This document shows, one piece after another, positions 3,811-17,979 of a DNA stretch of 23,799 nt. Source of the DNA: a virus. The DNA is taken from IMG/VR virus record IMGVR_UViG_3300020197_000164, positions 1 to 23,799 of that record. One strand, 5' to 3'. Under the pieces are notes generated by a model that was not told the origin of the DNA, ran no database searches, and worked only from the letters and a program-made list of their open reading frames with translations. Both the position numbers and the translations under genes were made by a program. The stretch's first letter is position 1. Each line of letters begins with the position of its first letter.

Positions 3811-5550
3811 GTGGCTGACCGCGAATTCGCACCCCCCATCAACACCACCAACAAGGTCGGCGCCGACGAACGCTCCCTTCTGGACGACCTCCACGCCCTC
3901 ATCAGTGAATACGAAACCGCGAAAACAAACGCGCTGGAGCGAAACGACGGCTTCACCGACGAGGACGACCTGAAACTCTATCGTGGGGAAGTCGGCCCCA
4001 AAGACCGCCTCTTTGAGTGCAACTTCACGCAAGCCTTCATCGACCGGCTGGTGGCGCAACTCACCGACAACCGCCCGATCCTCCGCGTCGAGCATCGCAA
4101 GCGTGGATTAGCCAATGTCGCCCGCGCCCTGGAAAAAGGCGTGATCGCGGTCTGGCAGGAAACCGACCTCCAGCGCCAGGTCTTCAAAATGTGCCACAAC
4201 GCCGCCATCAAGCGGAGCGCCGGTCTCTACACCGGCTACGATCCCGCTACCGACGACATCTACGTGGAAATGCTGCGTCCAGACCAGTTGCTCGCGGACC
4301 CCGCCGTCCTCGAAGCGGGGCTGTTGGACCACGCGGAAGCGCTCTTTATCAAGCGTGTCGTCCCGCTCTCGCTGTTGCGGCGTCGGTTTCCAGGGCGTGG
4401 GGCACTCGTCACACCCGACAAAGCCTCCTCACCAGGCCGCTCCGCCATGCGCACCGTGGAATCCCCTGTCACCACCCTCCTGGAAAAATCACGGGAGTCG
4501 AAAGCCTCCCAAAGCGTGAACGCCGTCATCCCCCGCGCTACCGTCTGGGAAGGCTGCATTCGGGACCGCCAAGTCAACTCCAGCGGGAAACTGGTGTTCC
4601 CGTATGGACGCAACATCCACTTCACTCGTGATGTCGTCCTGTGGGACGGCGCCTACCCTTACTGGGACGCGCAATGGCCGGTGGATTGGTACGACTGGAC
4701 TGTCGATCCTGACCACTTGTGGGGCCACAGCGCCATCTCCCTGCTCCGCCGGATTCAAACGGCCTTCAACCAACTCGTCGATGGCACGGTCGAAAACCAA
4801 ATCATCACCAACTTCGTCAGCATCATCGGCGACCACGATGTCCTCACCAACCGCCAATGGACACAACTCCAGAAAATCCGCAACTCGCTGGTGTTGAAAA
4901 AGCAAGGGGGGCCGAACAAGACGCTGACGCTGCAACCTCCGCCGCCATTCGGGGCCGACCGGATGCAATTGTCGAAGTTCCTGTTCACCTTCGCCCAGAT
5001 GATTACCGGCGTCACCGATGTCACCCTCGGCGAAACCGCCGGGTCGCTGCAATCAGGGCTGGCGATTGAAGGACTCCAGGAAGGGGCCAACTTAATGACC
5101 CGTGCGCGAGCCTCCCGCTTGGAGGATTTACTGTCGCGGGTCGGACAGAAGTTGGTCGCCCGTATTCTCCAGTTCGTGACCGCCGACCGCGTCTTTTCCA
5201 TTATGGGGCCGTCGGGAGAAGCGGTGGAATACGCGCTGGCCCGCAGCGAACTCTTCATCAACGACGATAAGTCGCCGGTCACGCCGGACCAGCGCCGCGA
5301 GTTCTTCAAGTACCTCCGCTTTACCGTGGCCCCCGGTTCCAGCGCCCCCGGCACCCGCGCCCGTCGCGCTGAAATGATGATGCGCTTGAACGCCATCGGT
5401 GCGGCCTCCCGGAAGATGGTGCTGCAAGCCGCCGACTTCCCAGACCCTGATTACATGCTGAAAGAAGCTGAGGAGGACTTCCAGAAGTTCCCACCGGCTG
5501 GGTTTAAGCGCGATCCAAACGCCGTCAACGCCATCGCACAACGGAGTTAG
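3811..5550 (+). CDS. Portal protein
   Basis: 579 aa, GTG start at 3811, 3 nt after the previous stop. The portal forms the dodecameric ring at the capsid vertex through which DNA is packaged and ejected. Support: size; position directly downstream of terminase; an acidic N-terminus followed by LYRGEVGPKDRLFECNFTQ, a portal-like opening; the LRPDQLLADPAV segment; the helical region SLLRRIQTAFNQLVDGTVEN; and the long helical core ending GLQEGANLMTRARASRLEDL, as in the stem and wing helices of podovirus-type portals. The C-terminus is helical and charged. A terminator-like hairpin follows at 5617-5637, so this probably ends a transcription unit. I cannot tell the exact portal subfamily by eye. 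Confidence 0.88.
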   Translation: MADREFAPPINTTNKVGADERSLLDDLHALISEYETAKTNALERNDGFTDEDDLKLYRGEVGPKDRLFECNFTQAFIDRLVAQLTDNRPILRVEHRKRGLANVARALEKGVIAVWQETDLQRQVFKMCHNAAIKRSAGLYTGYDPATDDIYVEMLRPDQLLADPAVLEAGLLDHAEALFIKRVVPLSLLRRRFPGRGALVTPDKASSPGRSAMRTVESPVTTLLEKSRESKASQSVNAVIPRATVWEGCIRDRQVNSSGKLVFPYGRNIHFTRDVVLWDGAYPYWDAQWPVDWYDWTVDPDHLWGHSAISLLRRIQTAFNQLVDGTVENQIITNFVSIIGDHDVLTNRQWTQLQKIRNSLVLKKQGGPNKTLTLQPPPPFGADRMQLSKFLFTFAQMITGVTDVTLGETAGSLQSGLAIEGLQEGANLMTRARASRLEDLLSRVGQKLVARILQFVTADRVFSIMGPSGEAVEYALARSELFINDDKSPVTPDQRREFFKYLRFTVAPGSSAPGTRARRAEMMMRLNAIGAASRKMVLQAADFPDPDYMLKEAEEDFQKFPPAGFKRDPNAVNAIAQRS

Positions 5551-5616
5551 CTTTTTGGCTGCTTACTACAACTCTAGTTACACTTGCTCCCCGCTCACTG
5601 GTCGTAGCGTTGGCTG

Positions 5617-5637
5617 CACCCTGGGCGGGTGTTTTTT
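5617..5637 (+). terminator. Rho-independent terminator after portal gene
   Basis: CACCC (5617-5621) pairs with GGGTG (5627-5631) across the 5-nt loop TGGGC, followed directly by six T residues (5632-5637). The stem is short but all strong pairs except one A-T. It sits about 67 bases past the portal stop and just ahead of a strong promoter, consistent with insulating the packaging genes from the downstream RNA. From the portal stop to this hairpin I see no coding sequence. Confidence 0.6.
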
Positions 5638-5654
5638 CATCTGCTAGAGACATA

Positions 5655-5684
5655 TTGACAGGATGATAAAAAGGTGGGTATACT
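5655..5684 (+). promoter_or_regulatory. Strong sigma70-type promoter (for the structured RNA)
   Basis: A perfect -35 TTGACA (5655-5660) and a near-perfect -10 TATACT (5679-5684) are separated by 18 nt. The predicted transcription start is around 5690-5692, so a transcript would begin about 10 nt before the first paired element (5700). It is the best consensus promoter I found in the window and faces no conventional gene for over 300 bases. That argues that its product is an RNA. Confidence 0.8.
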
Positions 5685-5831
5685 GCATTTGCCCATCAAT
5701 AGGGTGGAGGCGCGAGGGGGGATTGAGCCTCAAGCCATGCGTAAACATGGCTCAACGGTTTGCAAGTCCGCCGCCCTAGTGACCCTTGGGGTTCTTGCCC
5801 CCTCGTTAGCCCACCTAATACGGAATTAACC

Positions 5832-5909
5832 ATGCCCGATAACCCCCTCTAAGCCTACATCGACGCCATCGAGGCCTACATCGACGCCATCGAGCGAATG
5901 GAGGCGTAG
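5832..5909 (+). pseudogene. Mini-ORF with in-frame TAA (possible decayed or leader peptide)
   Basis: ATG (5832) opens a frame that reads MPDNPL, then TAA (5850-5852), then AYIDAIE twice, RMEA and TAG (5907-5909). The part after the TAA is in the same frame and contains the two perfect 7-codon repeats, so it looks like a small coding sequence that has acquired a stop, or a sequence only fortuitously open. Only a weak CGGA precedes the ATG. It could alternatively be a 6-codon leader peptide. All other genes here use the standard code, so stop recoding is not supported. Confidence 0.3.
5853..5894 (+). repeat. 21-nt perfect tandem repeat, two copies
   Basis: GCCTACATCGACGCCATCGA plus G occurs twice in perfect tandem (5853-5873 and 5874-5894). 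Each unit is exactly seven codons in the frame of the mini-ORF starting at ATG 5832 and would encode AYIDAIE. The repeat lies inside the putative structured RNA, in the part with least obvious pairing. A recent duplication or slippage event is the simplest origin. Confidence 0.9.
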
Positions 5910-5912
5910 CGA

Positions 5913-5948
5913 AGGGGGCGGTCGCTAAAACCACCCTAACTTTTTTTT
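5913..5948 (+). terminator. Terminator at the 3' end of the structured RNA
   Basis: AGGG...GGT (5913-5922) can pair with ACC...CCCT (5930-5937) around a small internal loop, and a run of eight T follows (5941-5948) after AAC. The hairpin is imperfect and competes with the 5700-5707/5931-5938 closing helix, but the T8 run is the longest in the window. Its position between an upstream RNA and the next promoter (5960) fits termination. Confidence 0.5.
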
Positions 5949-5959
5949 ATCCCAGGTAC

Positions 5960-5988
5960 TTGACAACGTCACTTAACTTATGTAACAT
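5960..5988 (+). promoter_or_regulatory. Sigma70-type promoter for the head-gene operon
   Basis: TTGACA (5960-5965), a 17-nt spacer, then TAACAT (5983-5988), with TG just ahead of the -10. The predicted start is near 5995, followed by GGGAG (6001-6005) and the ATG at 6010. Much of its sequence is shared with a second site at 20921-20949 (TTGACAA, then ACTT and ACT, then ATG and ACATAC), suggesting a common phage promoter or operator design. Confidence 0.7.
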
Positions 5989-6009
5989 ACTCAACAAATA
6001 GGGAGACGT

Positions 6010-6552
6010 ATGCCTGCTGGCGTAGGGTATCCAGGAATGTCGGAGATGTTGTCGGGCCTGTCCGGTTCCAGTGGGGCGACCCGCGATCCTCAGGATGTGA
6101 GCTTCACCTTGGGCTTCCTGGCTGCGCTGGGCGCGAAAGAGGTGGGCGATCAAGCCGCCTCCCAACAGCGCGAATCCATGAAAGCGCAAAAGCAGGCGAT
6201 GTCGTCCCCGGCCCAAATGCTGCAAGGCAACCTCGGCCCCCTCGATCAACTGTTGGCAATGGCTCGATTCCAAGGGGCCGGACCCGGCTCTCCCCCGGCG
6301 ACGCCCCCGCAATCGCCCATTGCGCTTTTGGCTTCTCGCATGTCCGGTGCTTCGCCCCAGGCACCTCCCCCCGGTGGACCTCCCCTCGCGGGCGGACCAG
6401 CGGCCACCCTACCCTCGCCTGGGGCTCCTTCACCCATGATGTCCAACGCCTTGATGAATACGATGATGCCGCCGCAGGGTGGGGGTGGGATGAACCCTAT
6501 GATTATGGCGCTCCTCCAACAGCGGATGGCGTCGGCGGGCGGGATGGTGTAA
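6010..6552 (+). CDS. Gly/Pro/Met-rich virion-associated protein, unknown
   Basis: 180 aa. ATG 6010 is preceded by GGGAG (6001-6005) and the promoter at 5960. The N-terminal half has short helical stretches (SFTLGFLAALGAKEVGDQ; SQQRESMKAQKQAM). The C-terminal half is low complexity, rich in Pro, Gly, Ala and Met, with PPPGGPP-type runs, ending in a Met-rich helix (NPMIMALLQQRMASAGG). No catalytic motif or TM segment of usual length is seen. Between portal and scaffold/capsid genes such proteins are often minor head proteins. The composition resembles the ejection-type proteins at 21498-23768. Family not recognised. The next gene starts directly after its stop (TAAATG). Confidence 0.75.
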   Translation: MPAGVGYPGMSEMLSGLSGSSGATRDPQDVSFTLGFLAALGAKEVGDQAASQQRESMKAQKQAMSSPAQMLQGNLGPLDQLLAMARFQGAGPGSPPATPPQSPIALLASRMSGASPQAPPPGGPPLAGGPAATLPSPGAPSPMMSNALMNTMMPPQGGGGMNPMIMALLQQRMASAGGMV

Positions 6553-6771
6553 ATGGCCCTCTCAACGACAGACGCTAAGACCGCCGCCGCCTTCAGCGAA
6601 ATGAAGCAGAACCCCCCGCGTGTGCTGGCCCGTACCGCCAGAAAGTACGGCCCTGCCCGCGCTGAACAGCAGCGGGTCGCCATCGGCCTCGATAAAGCTC
6701 AACGTGCAGGCGCCCGCATCCCACAACGGAAGGGCGTGCGTTCAACCGCCCGTTCTGCGGCCCGACGGTAA
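6553..6771 (+). CDS. Small Arg/Ala-rich basic protein
   Basis: 72 aa. The ATG at 6553 abuts the previous TAA (6550-6552), implying coupled translation. The protein is strongly basic with many Arg and Ala residues, ending RSTARSAARR. It looks like a small DNA- or capsid-binding polypeptide, probably helical with a disordered tail. No zinc site, HTH or signal peptide is visible. Its stop overlaps the SD of the next gene. I do not recognise it. Confidence 0.65.
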   Translation: MALSTTDAKTAAAFSEMKQNPPRVLARTARKYGPARAEQQRVAIGLDKAQRAGARIPQRKGVRSTARSAARR

Positions 6772-6781
6772 AGGAGCCAGT

Positions 6782-6955
6782 ATGCCACTCGTCGATTCCT
6801 CACTCAATCTCCAATATCACTACAACCAAGGAGGGTCCTCCATGAAAAGCGACGTGAAAACATCCAAAAAGGAACCGTTGAAGGGGAAGATGGTGGAATC
6901 ACCCGTCAAGTCCCACTACAACGGCGACCCAATCAGCACGAAGCGCGAGAAGTAA
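6782..6955 (+). CDS. Very small charged protein with two candidate starts
   Basis: 57 aa from ATG 6782, which has AAGGAG (6771-6776) 5 nt upstream. An in-frame ATG at 6842 has an even stronger AAGGAGG (6828-6834) 7 nt upstream and would give a 37-aa product. The C-terminal part common to both is Lys-rich (KTSKKEPLKGK; STKREK) and predicted disordered. Both starts may be used, or only the internal one. No family recognised; short Lys-rich proteins of this type occur among phage head genes. Confidence 0.6.
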   Translation: MPLVDSSLNLQYHYNQGGSSMKSDVKTSKKEPLKGKMVESPVKSHYNGDPISTKREK

Positions 6956-6968
6956 GGGTATTTACTTA

Positions 6969-7208
6969 ATGTCATCCGACGACCTCCCTGTCGTCAACGG
7001 TTTGACGCAGACGCAGGACGATGCCCGTCCCGTTCTGGACCGTCTCACCGATTTCCTCATGCGCCCCATGCACCCCGATTCGTACTACATCAATGAAGGA
7101 CTCCAGCAATTGGGGATGGCGTTTGAGGTCTCCAATAACGAAACACTCAAGGCCCGCCTCGCAGCGGCGATGACTCTACTGCGCGAGGGACCGAGCCATT
7201 CTTCCTAA
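6969..7208 (+). CDS. Small helical protein, unknown
   Basis: 79 aa. ATG 6969 follows the previous stop by 13 nt, with TAAGGG (6953-6958) as the probable SD. The sequence is acidic to neutral and mostly helical; its core (residues about 40-70, INEGLQQLGMAFEVSNNETL onward) looks like a small helical bundle, not a TM protein. It sits just ahead of the scaffold-like gene among small head-region genes. Function not recognised. Confidence 0.65.
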   Translation: MSSDDLPVVNGLTQTQDDARPVLDRLTDFLMRPMHPDSYYINEGLQQLGMAFEVSNNETLKARLAAAMTLLREGPSHSS

Positions 7209-10448: not shown

Positions 10449-10958
10449 ATGGCATTAACATTCACACTTTCAGGCGACTGGCAAGGCAACGTCGGCAATC
10501 AGCGGTATGTGCAGGGCACGTTGGCGTTCGACTCCAGCTATCCCACAGGGGGCGAATCGCTGACCGCCGCGAACATCGGGTTGCGGGTCATCGAACAGAT
10601 TGACGTGCAACCGAGGTCGGGGTACGTGTTCGATTACAATTACACCGATTCCTTGCTGTTGGTGTATCGAACCGGCACGGTCACTCCAGCGGGGACGCTG
10701 TCCACCCCCAGTTTTGCGATTGCGTCCTCGGCATCGGCTTCCGCCACCTACAAGTTGACGGTGAGCGCCGATTCCACGGTAGCGGTGGTGGCCGGTGACT
10801 CGTTGACAGCGGCCCGCACGCTGTCCGGCACATACTCTCCGGTCGGTGTTCCAACCTTTACGGGCAACGCCACGACAGCGGCAGCGCTCGCCGAGGTCGG
10901 GAATACAACGGACCTGTCCACCCTCACAGGGGTCAGGTTCCGTGCCGTCGGGTACTAA
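10449..10958 (+). CDS. Beta-rich, Ser/Thr-rich structural protein
   Basis: 169 aa. A strong SD, AAAGGAGG (10433-10440), sits 8 nt before the ATG. It opens MALTFTLSGDWQGNVGNQRY, which resembles proteins commonly encoded in the head region of environmental phages. The remainder is beta-rich with a Ser/Ala/Thr-rich middle (SFAIASSASASATYKLTVSA) and the C-terminus FRAVGY. No enzyme motif is found. It is probably a capsid decoration or head-tail structural protein. Its last 17 nt overlap the likely GTG start of the glycosyltransferase gene, tying the cassette to the structural operon. Confidence 0.7.
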   Translation: MALTFTLSGDWQGNVGNQRYVQGTLAFDSSYPTGGESLTAANIGLRVIEQIDVQPRSGYVFDYNYTDSLLLVYRTGTVTPAGTLSTPSFAIASSASASATYKLTVSADSTVAVVAGDSLTAARTLSGTYSPVGVPTFTGNATTAAALAEVGNTTDLSTLTGVRFRAVGY

Positions 10959-11679
10959 GCCGGTGTTCGGCTTGAATACATCGAAGCAACTGCGCGGTCT
11001 CGTTGCGGTCGTCAGCGGCGAGACCGCCCGTTTCGCTCGCGCTGAGGATTCCCTCAACAAGCTCCTCCTCCCCCCCAACTGGGAAATGCGCCGGTTCTAC
11101 GGCACCAACGTCGCCGCCAACCTCAACAACGGGGTCCGGTATGCGTTGGCGACGGGAGCCGAGCATCTGATGGTGATTGGGGATGACCACGTCTTTTCCC
11201 CGATGCTGCTGTACCACCTACTCACACGGAAGGTGGACATTATTGCCCCCCTCGTGACGTTTCGCCGACCCCCCTACATGCCCATCGCTTTCCGCCCTAG
11301 GAAGTCGGGCGAGACGATGTGGGAAACGACGTTTTGGGAAGACCTCCCTCCAAGCGGGATCATGGAAGTCGGTGCAGTCACAAATTCCGGTATGCTGATT
11401 CGCCGAAGTGTGTTAGAATGTCTCAGCGACCCTTGGTTTGATTTGGGGCAAGTCCACCCCGAACACACAGCGGAGGACCTGCACTTTTGCGAGAAGGCGA
11501 TCCACGCTGGTTTCAAAGTGTACGTGGATGTGGATGAGGCGCTGGAACATCTCACACCAGTCGGCATGAAGCCCACGCGACGGGACGATGGGACGTGGGG
11601 CATGGATGCGGTCCTCGACGACGGCATTATCATCCCTCTCCCGTTGGCGTTACCAGAGTCAGACGCGGTAACTGTATGA
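10942..11679 (+). CDS. Glycosyltransferase, GT-A fold (GT2-like)
   Basis: 245 aa from GTG 10942, the in-frame start nearest the true N-terminus; a nearby GTG at 10963 is possible, and the ATG at 10846 lies deep in the preceding gene in another frame. Motifs: LRGLVAVVSGETARF near the N-terminus, GTNVAANLNNGVRYAL, then GDDH (residues 80-83) as the DxD-like metal/nucleotide-sugar site after a beta strand (HLMVIGDDHVF), and AEDLHF with E178/D179 in the slot of the catalytic acidic pair of GT-A enzymes. It would transfer a sugar from a nucleotide sugar; acceptor unknown. Its last bases (ATGA) overlap the next gene's start, so the two are co-translated. Confidence 0.78.
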   Translation: MPSGTKPVFGLNTSKQLRGLVAVVSGETARFARAEDSLNKLLLPPNWEMRRFYGTNVAANLNNGVRYALATGAEHLMVIGDDHVFSPMLLYHLLTRKVDIIAPLVTFRRPPYMPIAFRPRKSGETMWETTFWEDLPPSGIMEVGAVTNSGMLIRRSVLECLSDPWFDLGQVHPEHTAEDLHFCEKAIHAGFKVYVDVDEALEHLTPVGMKPTRRDDGTWGMDAVLDDGIIIPLPLALPESDAVTV

Positions 11680-12218
11680 AGCTCAACATCGGCAGCGGCC
11701 CAGACCCCTTGCTCGGCTACGTGAACATCGACGCGGAGCCGCCTGCCGACTATGTCGGCGACATCCGCGCCATGAACTTCCACGAAGTCGAGGAAATCTT
11801 GATGATCCATTCGCTGGAACATCTCCCGTACCGCGATGTGCCGGTACTGCTTCAGAAGATGAAGCGGTGGCTCGTCCCCGACGGCGTCCTCTGCATCGAG
11901 GTCCCGGATATGGCGGTGATCTGTCAGAACCCGCACCACCCCCATTTCCAGTTGTACACCTATGGCGTGCAAACCTCCGGGGGTGAAATTCATATGAGCG
12001 GGTACACTCTCGCTTCCTTGACTGCGTTACTGATTCAAATGGGGTTCTACATTCAACAGGGTCGTGCGTTTCTTTCAACACACCCAAACCGAGTGGGGAT
12101 GCCGTGCGTGGAAGTGATCGCCCATGCGCCACGGTCCTTATCACAGGAGTCGGAGGCGCAGCGGGCGCAAATCTCGTCCGCGCCTTGCGACGAGGCACAA
12201 CCCGTGTCCGTATCGTAG
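11676..12218 (+). CDS. SAM-dependent methyltransferase (small, class I)
   Basis: 180 aa from ATG 11676, which shares ATGA with the preceding stop. It opens with MKLNIGSGPDPLLGYVNID, a degenerate class I SAM-binding motif in a family often annotated as methyltransferases of sugar or cell-surface gene clusters. IHSLEHLPYRDV (about residue 45) and LVPDGVLCIEVPD (about 68) match later motifs of such enzymes. The natural domain seems to end near VEVIAHAP; the remaining about 28 residues are hydrophilic and Ser/Gln-rich, running across the next gene's N-terminus in another frame. Its substrate (sugar, peptide or small molecule) is not determinable. Confidence 0.75.
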   Translation: MKLNIGSGPDPLLGYVNIDAEPPADYVGDIRAMNFHEVEEILMIHSLEHLPYRDVPVLLQKMKRWLVPDGVLCIEVPDMAVICQNPHHPHFQLYTYGVQTSGGEIHMSGYTLASLTALLIQMGFYIQQGRAFLSTHPNRVGMPCVEVIAHAPRSLSQESEAQRAQISSAPCDEAQPVSVS

Positions 12219-13225
12219 GCGCAGATTGCAACAAGTACCACCTGGCAGCGGCGGACTGCGATGAACGCCGCCTCTTGCCGCCCACGGAAGCCGACCGCGA
12301 GGTCTGGCTGGATGCCGTCTTTCAGGGCGCAGACGCGGTAGACCTCATCCTCCCTCAACCCGATTGCGATGTAGCCGCGCTCGCTTCCGTGTCCACCACC
12401 CCGGAATGGCGGGCCAAACTCGTCCTCCCATCGCCCGGCGCGATTGCGATTGCCCAGGATAAGCTCGATACCGTCTTGACCTTGACGGCGGCGGGCCTCC
12501 CGGTCCCCATGACCATCCCGTACCCGCCGAAGCTCACGGACGTGGCGTGTGAGACGCTGGGCTGGCCGATGTGGGTGCGGGCGCGGCATGGCGCAGGATC
12601 ACGCGGCTCGTTTCGGGCTTGGACGCTGGAACAGGTCCACATTTGGATTGAATCCTGCCGCTACAACAAGTCGATCCAGCCGGATGATTTCATCCTGTGT
12701 GCCTACCTCCCAGGCGCCGAATACGGCTGTCAACTTCTCTACTGGCACGGCACGTTGCTGGTCTCGCAAACACGAGAGCGGGTCGAATACCTTTACGGGT
12801 ACTTGTCGCCAACCGGCCAGTCCTCCAGCCCTGCTGTGGCGCGAACCGTCGCTAATACCGCCCTGGATACCTTGGCCGATCAAGCCGTCCGCGCCCTCGA
12901 CTACGAACCGCATGGCGTGTACGGGGTGGATATGAAATGCGACACCCAGGGCCGTCCCCACATCACGGAGATCAACGCCGGACGCTTCTATACCACGATT
13001 GACTTCCTCGCGTCCGCCGGTCTCAACCTCCCGGAAATCCTCGTGAAACTCCACCGTGGAGACACGATTCCCGTGTTGGGGTGCTCCCCCTTAGCCGCAA
13101 ACCAGTATTGGGTGCGAACCGCCGATTGTCTGCCGCGCCTTGTCCGCTACACCGACCTGATGACACTTGAAAAGGAGAGGACTGTATGCCGTACTCAGGC
13201 TCCATTGTCAGTTCCAACTCGTTAG
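12104..13225 (+). CDS. ATP-grasp ligase
   Basis: 373 aa. GTG 12104 is the only good start that keeps the N-terminal domain, with GGGGA (about 12095-12099) as SD. It overlaps the methyltransferase gene by 115 nt. The N-terminal pre-ATP-grasp Rossmann-like part has ATVLITGVGGAAGANLVRAL (residues 9-28). SPGAIAIAQDKLDTVLTLT marks entry to the ATP-grasp domain, HGAGSRGS (about 162-169) is the nucleotide-binding loop, and GRPHITEINAGRF (E289, N291) is the Mg-ATP site. The architecture fits carbamoyl-phosphate-synthase-like ATP-grasp ligases that couple a carboxylate to an amine or thiol. Its substrates and product are unknown. Confidence 0.82.
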   Translation: MRGSDRPCATVLITGVGGAAGANLVRALRRGTTRVRIVGADCNKYHLAAADCDERRLLPPTEADREVWLDAVFQGADAVDLILPQPDCDVAALASVSTTPEWRAKLVLPSPGAIAIAQDKLDTVLTLTAAGLPVPMTIPYPPKLTDVACETLGWPMWVRARHGAGSRGSFRAWTLEQVHIWIESCRYNKSIQPDDFILCAYLPGAEYGCQLLYWHGTLLVSQTRERVEYLYGYLSPTGQSSSPAVARTVANTALDTLADQAVRALDYEPHGVYGVDMKCDTQGRPHITEINAGRFYTTIDFLASAGLNLPEILVKLHRGDTIPVLGCSPLAANQYWVRTADCLPRLVRYTDLMTLEKERTVCRTQAPLSVPTR

Positions 13226-13527
13226 CCGGGACCGCCACCGTGCTCGTCGGCCACCGTTGTATTCTCACAGGGGCCTGCGTGATTAACACGACCGGCGCCG
13301 ATGCCTATGTCCAGTTGTTTGATGCCGCTGCCGTGACCGACGTGTCGGTCGGCACCACCATCCCCACATGGGCGATCCAAACCGACTTCGGGAAGGGGCT
13401 GGTGAATGAATCCTCCAACATTCCTGAAGGGGGGATTTCGTTCGTCAACGGGATTGTGGGGGCGTCCTGCACGACTCCAACCGGCAGCACCGGCGCTGCA
13501 CAGCACGTCAGGTTAGCGATTATCTAG
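13186..13527 (+). CDS. Small beta-rich phage virion protein
   Basis: 113 aa. AAAGGAG (13171-13177) precedes the ATG. The pattern is SGSIVSSNSLAGTATVLVGH near the start, then ACVINTTGADAYVQLFDA, TIPTWAI, and GISFVNGI. This resembles a family of small beta-sandwich proteins common next to phage head and tail genes, which often contain a NNTSGAAAYLQLFD-like segment. It begins within the last 40 nt of the ATP-grasp gene in a different frame. It is rich in Ser/Thr and has three Cys. It is the only non-enzyme inside the modification cassette, so it may be a virion protein carried along or the target of modification (inference). Confidence 0.75.
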   Translation: MPYSGSIVSSNSLAGTATVLVGHRCILTGACVINTTGADAYVQLFDAAAVTDVSVGTTIPTWAIQTDFGKGLVNESSNIPEGGISFVNGIVGASCTTPTGSTGAAQHVRLAII

Positions 13528-13578
13528 TCCGTATTCCAGGGTAGGGGGAATTCACCATATTGGGGAGGGAGGAACACG

Positions 13579-14286
13579 ATGTTTCATCGGCCACTGAAGA
13601 AAACGATTTACACGCTCAACATTGGGAACTACGCGCCCCAGATTACGGCGCTGACGTACCCGCTGATGGCGGCGTATGCCAAGAAGATCGGGGCGCACTT
13701 CTACGTGATGACCGAGCGCAAGTTTCCCGACTGGCCGATCACGTATGAAAAGATGCAGGTGTATGAACTGGCCCAACAGCATGACAACGACTGGAATATC
13801 TTTGTAGACAGCGATTGCCTGATTCACCCCGATATGTTCGATATCACCAACCACATGTCGAAGGATCAAGTCGCCCACAATGCGTTCGATGTCGCCAGCC
13901 ATCGGTGGGTGTACGACCGCTTCTTCTACCGCGATGGGCGGCACATCGGCAGCGGCAACTGGTTGGCAGTCGCCTCAGATTGGTGCATCGAGTTGTGGAA
14001 GCCGCTGGACGACATCACGAAAGAGGAAGCCGTGGCACGTATTTACCCGACTGTCCGTGAGCGGTCAAGCGGCACCGTGGAACCGGAACACCTCATCGAC
14101 GATTTCACGCTCTCCCGCAACATCGCCAAGCACGGACTCAAAGTCACGAACGTCCGCGCCATGATGAAAACGATGGGGTATGCCGACAACATCGGCTTCC
14201 TCTGGCATCGGTACGCCATCCCCGAAGAGCAAAAGCTGGCTGAGATGAAAAAGACGCTCAAGGATTGGGGGGTGAACATCGCATGA
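13579..14286 (+). CDS. Glycosyltransferase (GT8-like, DxD)
   Basis: 235 aa. ATG 13579 follows a GGGAGGGAGG-type SD (about 13562-13572). An N-terminal strand (KKTIYTLNIGNYAPQITALT) precedes a helix with AKKIGAHFYVMTERKFPDW, then the catalytic-type motif FVDSDCLIH with D77-S-D79 (DxD, metal and nucleotide-sugar binding), then GNWLAVASDW, where an NDP-sugar-contacting loop is usual. EPEHLIDDFTLSRNI provides acidic residues downstream. It would act in the cytoplasm on a sugar or protein acceptor. The stop TGA overlaps the ATG of the radical SAM gene (ATGA). Confidence 0.75.
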   Translation: MFHRPLKKTIYTLNIGNYAPQITALTYPLMAAYAKKIGAHFYVMTERKFPDWPITYEKMQVYELAQQHDNDWNIFVDSDCLIHPDMFDITNHMSKDQVAHNAFDVASHRWVYDRFFYRDGRHIGSGNWLAVASDWCIELWKPLDDITKEEAVARIYPTVRERSSGTVEPEHLIDDFTLSRNIAKHGLKVTNVRAMMKTMGYADNIGFLWHRYAIPEEQKLAEMKKTLKDWGVNIA

Positions 14287-15248
14287 AACCTCTCACCCAC
14301 AAGGACGGCGTCCAAATCGAAATCACCAATTACTGTATCCACGCCTGTAGTAACTGTACCCGCTTTTGCGGAAGCCACCAACACCACTACTATATGGACT
14401 ATGACTACTTCCAGAAGGCTGTGGACTCCTTGGAGGGCTACCCCCGCGTCATCGGGATCATGGGTGGGGAACCGCTCCTTCACCCCGAATTTGAACGCCT
14501 CTGCAATTACCTCGCGTCCAAGTTCCCGCGTGAACAACTAGGGCTGTGGTCCACCCTGCCGCATGGGTATGAACACCACCGAGAAGTCATCTGCCGCACC
14601 TTCGGGAACATCCTGTTGAACGACCATACGCTGCCGGAAGTGATGCACGCTCCTTTGCTGGTCGGTATTGAGGAACTGGTCAAGGACAAGGCAACGATGT
14701 GGCAACTCATCGACAACTGTTGGGTCCAGAATGCCTGGAGCGCCGCCATCAACCCGAAAGGGGCGTTCTTCTGTGAGGTCGCCGCCGCTCGCGCCATCCT
14801 CTTCGACGGGGCCGACGGCTGGCCTCTGGAGAAAGGCTGGTGGAAGCGTATCCCCGCGTTTTATAAGGAACAAATGGAGGAACACTGTCCAGGGTGTGGA
14901 GGGGCGTTGATGCTCCCCGCCCGCACCAGCATGGATGAGCGCGACGACATTTCCCCGAAGAACCTGGAACGCTTAAAGGGGATTTCCAGGAAGGTGGATC
15001 GCGGCGAGTTCGTCCTGTTCGATACCGCCAAGCCGATCCCGATTCTCCCGTCCAAGTATCCGCCGCAGGAATATAAAAACGGTCCCTACCGCCAGGAAGT
15101 CGCGGCTCGCTACGGGATGTTCCTCGTGATGTCGGATCGCGGCTTTTGGGACCCGTACCTGAAGCAGACGTGGACGCCGGGAGACGCCCCACTCTCCCAC
15201 CTCGTCACGATTGACCCGGTGAAGGTACAACATGGCTACGTTGTCTGA
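14283..15248 (+). CDS. Radical SAM enzyme
   Basis: 321 aa from ATG 14283. The hallmark CxxxCxxC is CIHACSNC, C18/C22/C25, which binds the 4Fe-4S cluster that cleaves SAM. GGEP is at residues 61-64. The TIM-barrel-like core runs to about residue 190. C164 (FFCEVAAA) and C202/C205 (HCPGCGG) could bind a second cluster, as in SPASM/twitch proteins. The gene overlaps the previous stop (ATGA) and the next gene by 17 nt. The upstream frame is open to a GTG at 14265, but 14283 is favoured. The substrate is unknown; enzymes of this class modify peptides, nucleotides or sugars. Confidence 0.88.
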   Translation: MKPLTHKDGVQIEITNYCIHACSNCTRFCGSHQHHYYMDYDYFQKAVDSLEGYPRVIGIMGGEPLLHPEFERLCNYLASKFPREQLGLWSTLPHGYEHHREVICRTFGNILLNDHTLPEVMHAPLLVGIEELVKDKATMWQLIDNCWVQNAWSAAINPKGAFFCEVAAARAILFDGADGWPLEKGWWKRIPAFYKEQMEEHCPGCGGALMLPARTSMDERDDISPKNLERLKGISRKVDRGEFVLFDTAKPIPILPSKYPPQEYKNGPYRQEVAARYGMFLVMSDRGFWDPYLKQTWTPGDAPLSHLVTIDPVKVQHGYVV

Positions 15249-16965: not shown

Positions 16966-17979
16966 ATGGCCCTTCCAACTTCTGTCAACAACTTGGCGCC
17001 GTTAGGGAGCGCCAGCCCTGCGACCATCGACGACCAACTCCGCGACCTCAAGCTCTTCTTGACCGACCTGTTCGGCGTCCCGAACGCCACCAACATCTCC
17101 GCGAACGTGATGACGGTCGTGGCTGGTGGGCTGGATAGCATCAACTTCGCCAACTCTGCGGCGAACGCCGCCGTCGCCGGGGAACTTCAACGCAACGGCG
17201 CCAACCTCACCTTCCATGACGGCACCTCGGCGCGAACGACGGTATGGGCGGAAACCACGCAAACCATTTCAGGGAATAAGACGTTCAGCGGCACAACCAG
17301 TCTTGGGACGGTTGCGACCGGCACCTGGAATGGGACGGCGATTGGCACCGTTTATGGGGGGACCAACGCGAATAGTTCGGCGGCCACCGGCATCGCACGA
17401 GTCGCGGCAGGCACCTGGTCTTTTTCAGACCAGGGGGCATTGGATGCCGCGCTTGGCACCGCCGTTCGTGGGGACATCGTGTATGGAAACAGCACGCCGG
17501 ATTGGGCGCGGCTGGCGATTGGCGCGAACGGGACCTACCTGTCCTCGAACGGCACCGATGTCAGTTGGGCGACCGTCGCACCGACGCCGCCGGTGTTTAA
17601 CCGCGTCGTGCGCACGGCAGGCGATGTCACGACGACCAGCACCTCTTTAGTTGATCTAACTGGAGCTTCAGTTACATTCACCACCGGAGCTTTTCCAGAG
17701 CATGTTTCATTTGCAGGAAATGCCCAACATTCAGGGGCTGCAGGTGACGTTTTTCTTAATGTCGATATTGATGGGGCGCTGCAATTTGGTACGAGTGGCC
17801 ACCGAGCGGCTGCTCCTGTGGCGGGGGCTGCAATGGATGTCAGCTTCGGGATGGACTCGGCTGCGCTCACCGCTGCGTCCCATACCACTAAAATTCAATG
17901 GAAGGTCGATACCGGGACGGGCACGATTGAGGCAGCGACGGATCAAAACTACGTCTTTTCTGCACACGAGATTCGATAA
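16966..17979 (+). CDS. Tail fibre / receptor-binding protein
   Basis: 337 aa. AAAGGA (16955-16960) precedes the ATG. The N-terminal 40 residues (MALPTSVNNLAPLGSASPAT, then IDDQLRDLKLFLTDLFGVP) look like the virion-attachment helix of tail fibres. The middle is beta-rich with fibre-type repeats: SGNKTFSGTTSLGTVATGTW and GTVYGGTNANSS, similar to the VANGGTG turns of fibres. From about residue 225 on (nt 17640-17979) the base composition changes to clearly more A/T with different codon choice; this is probably the receptor-binding domain, acquired separately. It forms a transcription unit with the neighbouring tail genes. Confidence 0.8.
   Translation: MALPTSVNNLAPLGSASPATIDDQLRDLKLFLTDLFGVPNATNISANVMTVVAGGLDSINFANSAANAAVAGELQRNGANLTFHDGTSARTTVWAETTQTISGNKTFSGTTSLGTVATGTWNGTAIGTVYGGTNANSSAATGIARVAAGTWSFSDQGALDAALGTAVRGDIVYGNSTPDWARLAIGANGTYLSSNGTDVSWATVAPTPPVFNRVVRTAGDVTTTSTSLVDLTGASVTFTTGAFPEHVSFAGNAQHSGAAGDVFLNVDIDGALQFGTSGHRAAAPVAGAAMDVSFGMDSAALTAASHTTKIQWKVDTGTGTIEAATDQNYVFSAHEIR

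Follow-up and report, generated by a model that had tools for sequence, protein, structure and literature searches.

Between its portal gene and its head operon, a lake phage carries a segment that we read as an accessory transcription unit of the moron type; its most likely product is a short RNA, structured and for the most part untranslated, that would act on the host or on the expression of phage genes (probability about 0.42). The rarity of the segment's promoter, a relative that lacks the insert, a local terminator hairpin, a long-range closing helix, a modest excess of folding stability and predicted peptides without relatives argue for this reading, while the single distinct sequence, the comparable folds elsewhere in the same contig and an inherited 3' closing arm argue against it. 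What is new here is the comparative anatomy of the junction. The features to which we refer, all within the window (the whole stretch of 23,799 nucleotides that was analysed), are as follows:

3811-5550, plus strand: portal protein gene (PHROG 156 portal, E = 1.1e-19), left border of the variable junction
5551-5572, plus strand: remnant of a cytosine methyltransferase gene start (TTG GCT GCT TAC TAC AAC, then a stop), identical at 20/20 bases; the gene is whole in relatives L003/L004
5616-5638, plus strand: putative terminator-like hairpin with T-run, from a pattern scan
5655-5684, plus strand: sigma-70 promoter P1, TTGACA-18-TATACT, an 11/12 sequence match
5691-5948, plus strand: predicted P1 transcript of ~255 nt, its start placed 7 nt past the -10 element
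5700-5707, plus strand: 5' arm of the closing helix, TAGGGTGG
5713-5806, plus strand: stablest predicted domain (-42 kcal/mol, z = -2.94), a stem CGAGGGGG/CCCCCTCG around the hairpin AGCCATG-CGTAAA-CATGGCT
5737-5829, plus strand: 30-aa ORF MRKHGSTVCKSAALVTLGVLAPSLAHLIRN, ATG at 5737, a small membrane or exported peptide in one rival reading
5753-5770, plus strand: CAACGGTTTGCAAGTCCG, an 18-base match without mismatches to the anticodon arm in phage tRNA-Cys(GCA) genes
5832-5907, plus strand: six-codon ORF MPDNPL, a stop, the in-frame repeat AYIDAIE-AYIDAIERMEA (AYIDAIEAYIDAIERMEA) and a stop
5912-5948, plus strand: local terminator hairpin with T8 (5941-5948), predicted 3' end of the transcript, including the 3' closing arm (5931-5938)
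5960-5988, plus strand: head-operon promoter P2, TTGACA-17-TAACAT, with the same hexamers in the insert-free relative
6010-6552, plus strand: first head-operon ORF, right border of the junction

The portal gene and the first head-operon ORF are separated by 459 bases, and because relatives (a ladder built by portal searches) have nothing, a methyltransferase or other ORFs in this place, the junction is a cargo site and the segment the cargo of one lineage. With 79% portal identity, the closest circular relative is a contig of 56,982 bases whose two ends, L006 and L008, each read through the portal end, so that the site is seen without joining them: the portal stop is followed by AGGCCCTAC, the T-run and P2, with no insert. 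The alignment of the window with L008 spans the T-run, P2 and the Shine-Dalgarno sequence, and the T-run and the motif CCCTA(A)C are both present in the insert-free relative. In L003 and L004, which are 94% identical in the portal, the junction instead holds a 296-aa cytosine methyltransferase (L003 ORF against PF00145, E = 4e-15) of a kind common in phages; the gene (7744-8634 in L003, the same place in L004) begins 3 bases past the portal stop with a TTG start. In more distant relatives (L018, L019, L021 and L029) the junction is filled by other small ORFs, which lie ahead of a head-operon promoter. The insert itself is known as one distinct sequence: a second contig, L002, is the same phage sequence (6232 bases compared, differing only at 5974), with an identical insert.

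Traces of the methyltransferase also flank the insert. In addition to the left-hand remnant, positions 5912-5941 match the last 30 bases of the methyltransferase gene better than all of 1000 shuffles; when the comparison was opened to the whole gene, 26 of 200 shuffles equalled the right-hand match, which makes this a likely rather than certain remnant of the gene end. These comparisons indicate that the T-run and P2 predate the insert and that the closing helix has its 3' arm in the older, inherited flank, whereas P1, the 5' closing arm and the structured domain came in with the insert. Other origins for the insert were rejected: apart from those last 30 bases, it matches the methyltransferase interior no better than shuffles do, a duplicated portal end is not significant, and a TA-flanked mini-transposon would have a terminal inverted repeat of only 6 bp and a right end that matches sister flanks.

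The promoter on which the earlier note had built its case is real: shuffling the whole window yields 11/12 sites at a rate of 0.025 per strand, and the entire 23.8 kb holds two of them, P1 included. P1 and P2 are the top two plus-strand promoter matches of the contig. On the minus strand, an 11/12 match (TTGACA-16-TATCAT, 16988-16961) lies where the ORF at 16966-17979 begins and points against the direction of the genes. Also as previously described, a T8 run closes the segment immediately before P2. Upstream of P1, the hairpin at 5616-5638 is probably the new end of the portal operon, although sites of this type occur 1.9 times per 2 kb in shuffled controls and are weak evidence alone. In the arrangement that we favor, the accessory unit would occupy ~5573-5911 of the variable junction, the terminator at 5616-5638 would close the portal operon upstream of P1, and the strong host-type sigma-70 promoter would make a GC-rich transcript of ~255 nt that stops at the older hairpin and T8, just before P2.

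The ends of the segment pair exactly, as the earlier note had observed: TAGGGTGG forms 8 bp with CCACCCTA (5931-5938), and the chance of such a match so near the predicted start and the T-run is ~0.005 in shuffles. The same 3' bases alternatively pair within the local terminator hairpin (-9.9 kcal/mol, U8 tail), and since both folds use CCACCCTA, closing helix and terminator would compete. The further stable helices that had been proposed are present, with a minimum free energy of -97.7 kcal/mol for 5690-5950 (z = -2.9 to -2.98, repeated with 300 shuffles), but they are modest: equal-size windows of the same contig reach z = -2.9 in 4/157 cases on the plus strand and 6/157 on the minus strand (3-4%), so that stability alone is weak evidence. 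The claim of a dedicated phage non-coding RNA survives in part, in that the segment is a discrete promoter-to-terminator unit that no known family explains. That the RNA is conserved as a structure finds no support: the segment is missing or replaced in all relatives but the identical contig, its stability is unexceptional, its 3' closing arm lies in the older flank and its T-run is present in the insert-free relative. A dedicated structured RNA is a fair candidate, as yet unproven.

The same remnants and the same modest fold allow a less eventful history, in which foreign or scrambled DNA took the place of the methyltransferase cargo, P1 merely adds head-operon transcription through a leaky T8, and the RNA is functionless. 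Both methyltransferase ends have left remnants, the right-hand one probably, the AYIDAIE repeat is interrupted by an in-frame stop (the frame at 5832-5907 resembles a broken small gene, possibly a decayed gene fragment), and, with the patterns and searches applied, no homologue of the insert turned up in viral contigs, 85k genomes, phages and plasmids, except in L002. However, a near-consensus promoter between two terminators exceeds what debris needs, and the closing helix is unlikely to have arisen by chance; we regard decayed or accidental filler as possible, if doubtful. If the RNA is not real, the junction would still be a caution, as recombination at such a site can build a good promoter, a T-run and paired ends out of what remains of the flanks.

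The insert contains no convincing or conserved protein gene, which largely upholds the earlier view of this segment: searches found no relatives of the predicted peptides, either of the 30-aa ORF or of the frame at 5832-5907. The caveat is the 30-aa ORF, which has a basic start, an SLA-H cleavage-like site and a hydrophobic core equalled by only 2 of the 126 ATG ORFs of similar length. The P1 transcript might therefore be the mRNA of this hydrophobic or exported peptide, which would be a small moron protein or else resemble a type I toxin silenced by mRNA folding. The end-to-end pairing recalls that of hok mRNA, in which such pairing is known, and a lipoprotein-like ORF occupies the same junction in L018. 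Yet the ORF lacks a Shine-Dalgarno sequence, which many other genes of this phage have, its ATG lies inside a 7-bp stem, and no antisense promoter-like site, as might accompany a hok-like system, was found in 5000-7000. Together with the lack of relatives, this makes a peptide mRNA unlikely. The L018 ORF (MKSLSLASLCLLSACASG...) lies ~100-450 bases past the end of the portal match at 5653, is upstream of a head-operon sigma-70 promoter with a 12/12 match, and could be a surface-exclusion lipoprotein.

The competing folds around CCACCCTA, whose bases pair either with the 5' end or within the terminator, would also suit a regulatory leader, with P1 transcripts normally ending at T8 and entering the head genes only via an antiterminator or an alternative fold. 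L020 has a comparable order of TTGACA site, leader, and strong hairpin with T-run before the head genes. The lambda 6S RNA runs from pR' to tR', where pR' transcripts stop, and the insert resembles it in its strong promoter, ~200-nt leader and terminator directly upstream of late genes; it differs in that its terminator precedes a second promoter and in that no antiterminator was identified. Because P2, downstream of T8, would bypass such control, and the insert-free relative manages without a leader, we consider this role improbable. In L020 (5690-5860, equivalent to 3790-3950 of L007) the leader is ~100 bases long and its hairpin very strong; a second promoter was not seen, and the layout is like that of lambda pR'-tR'.

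No known RNA family accounts for the predicted transcript, as the earlier note had surmised: Rfam gave nothing above the gathering cut-off (tmRNA, 6S, SRP, RNase P and pRNA included), and a scan for tmRNA and tRNA (ARAGORN for tRNA) found none. The best of the weak hits, a minus-strand tRNA-Sec candidate, scored 23.6 bits against a required 47, with misfitting acceptor and T arms, and was absent at the scale of the whole window; a plus-strand tRNA gene was likewise rejected, with an 18-base anticodon-arm match and no cloverleaf. In that match, the tRNA-Cys model recovers the anticodon arm alone (12.8 bits). A 16-base probe hit 16 other viral contigs, in 10 of which the site is the anticodon arm of tRNA-Cys(GCA), with no tRNA at the match in the remaining 6. 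The probe was picked by eye after a tRNA-like loop had been noticed, and rough arithmetic puts the chance of an 18-base tRNA match at 1-2%, so we treat the resemblance as suggestive only. Hunts for homologues in viral contigs with four RNA patterns hit, besides the identical contig, only tRNA-Cys genes or chance matches; three probes from the RNA other than the tRNA-like one hit the identical contig or chance matches only. In a more speculative reading the insert is a non-coding moron: the cargo site would switch between a methyltransferase gene for protection and a dedicated structured RNA, and the tRNA-Cys-like anticodon arm of that RNA might act as a decoy against an anticodon nuclease of the host or some other defence that binds tRNA. 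We consider this a long shot. Predicted pairing of the RNA to the ribosome sites of phage genes was unexceptional, the best duplex falling within the contig background.

The phi29 pRNA is a phage packaging RNA whose two ends pair, as do those of the insert RNA, which has no Rfam match. Packaging was among the roles that the earlier note had raised, but the close insert-free relative keeps the same terminase, portal and head layout, so the segment is not needed for packaging there and a packaging-essential role is unlikely.

The moron-like accessory unit thus remains our preferred reading. In lambdoid phages, morons are accessory genes that sit between two genes adjacent in relatives and have a promoter and a terminator to themselves. 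The segment described here is similar in being absent from a close relative (L008/L006, with another gene in L003/L004), in carrying its own sigma-70 promoter by sequence match, and in lying between operons with flanking terminators. Whereas a moron brings its own terminator, the right-hand one here is inherited from the insert-free state and the left-hand one is a weak scan hit; a moron also codes for a protein whose expression is independent of the lytic programme, and here there is no convincing protein gene, the sole candidate being the 30-aa ORF, which lacks a ribosome site. A temperate lifestyle is also not indicated: no tyrosine integrase was matched in the mostly partial records that were searched, which likewise led us to reject an attP in a tRNA. 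A portal-based host search gave no match. The term moron is also in use in PMC7067206, in which non-coding RNAs of prophage BTP1 were detected by RNA-seq, and other phage-encoded small RNAs are reviewed in PMC12197685. The predicted transcript resembles these in being short, promoter-driven and of plausible accessory role; unlike the BTP1 RNAs, it is a prediction, with no sequence relation found to any known RNA. If the RNA is real, cargo sites of environmental phages would swap protein genes for RNA genes in place, and annotation pipelines would miss such genes.

Elsewhere in the window, at 10846-15248, the structural genes are interspersed with ORFs that weakly match glycosyltransferase, SAM methyltransferase and radical SAM families and perhaps form a modification cluster.
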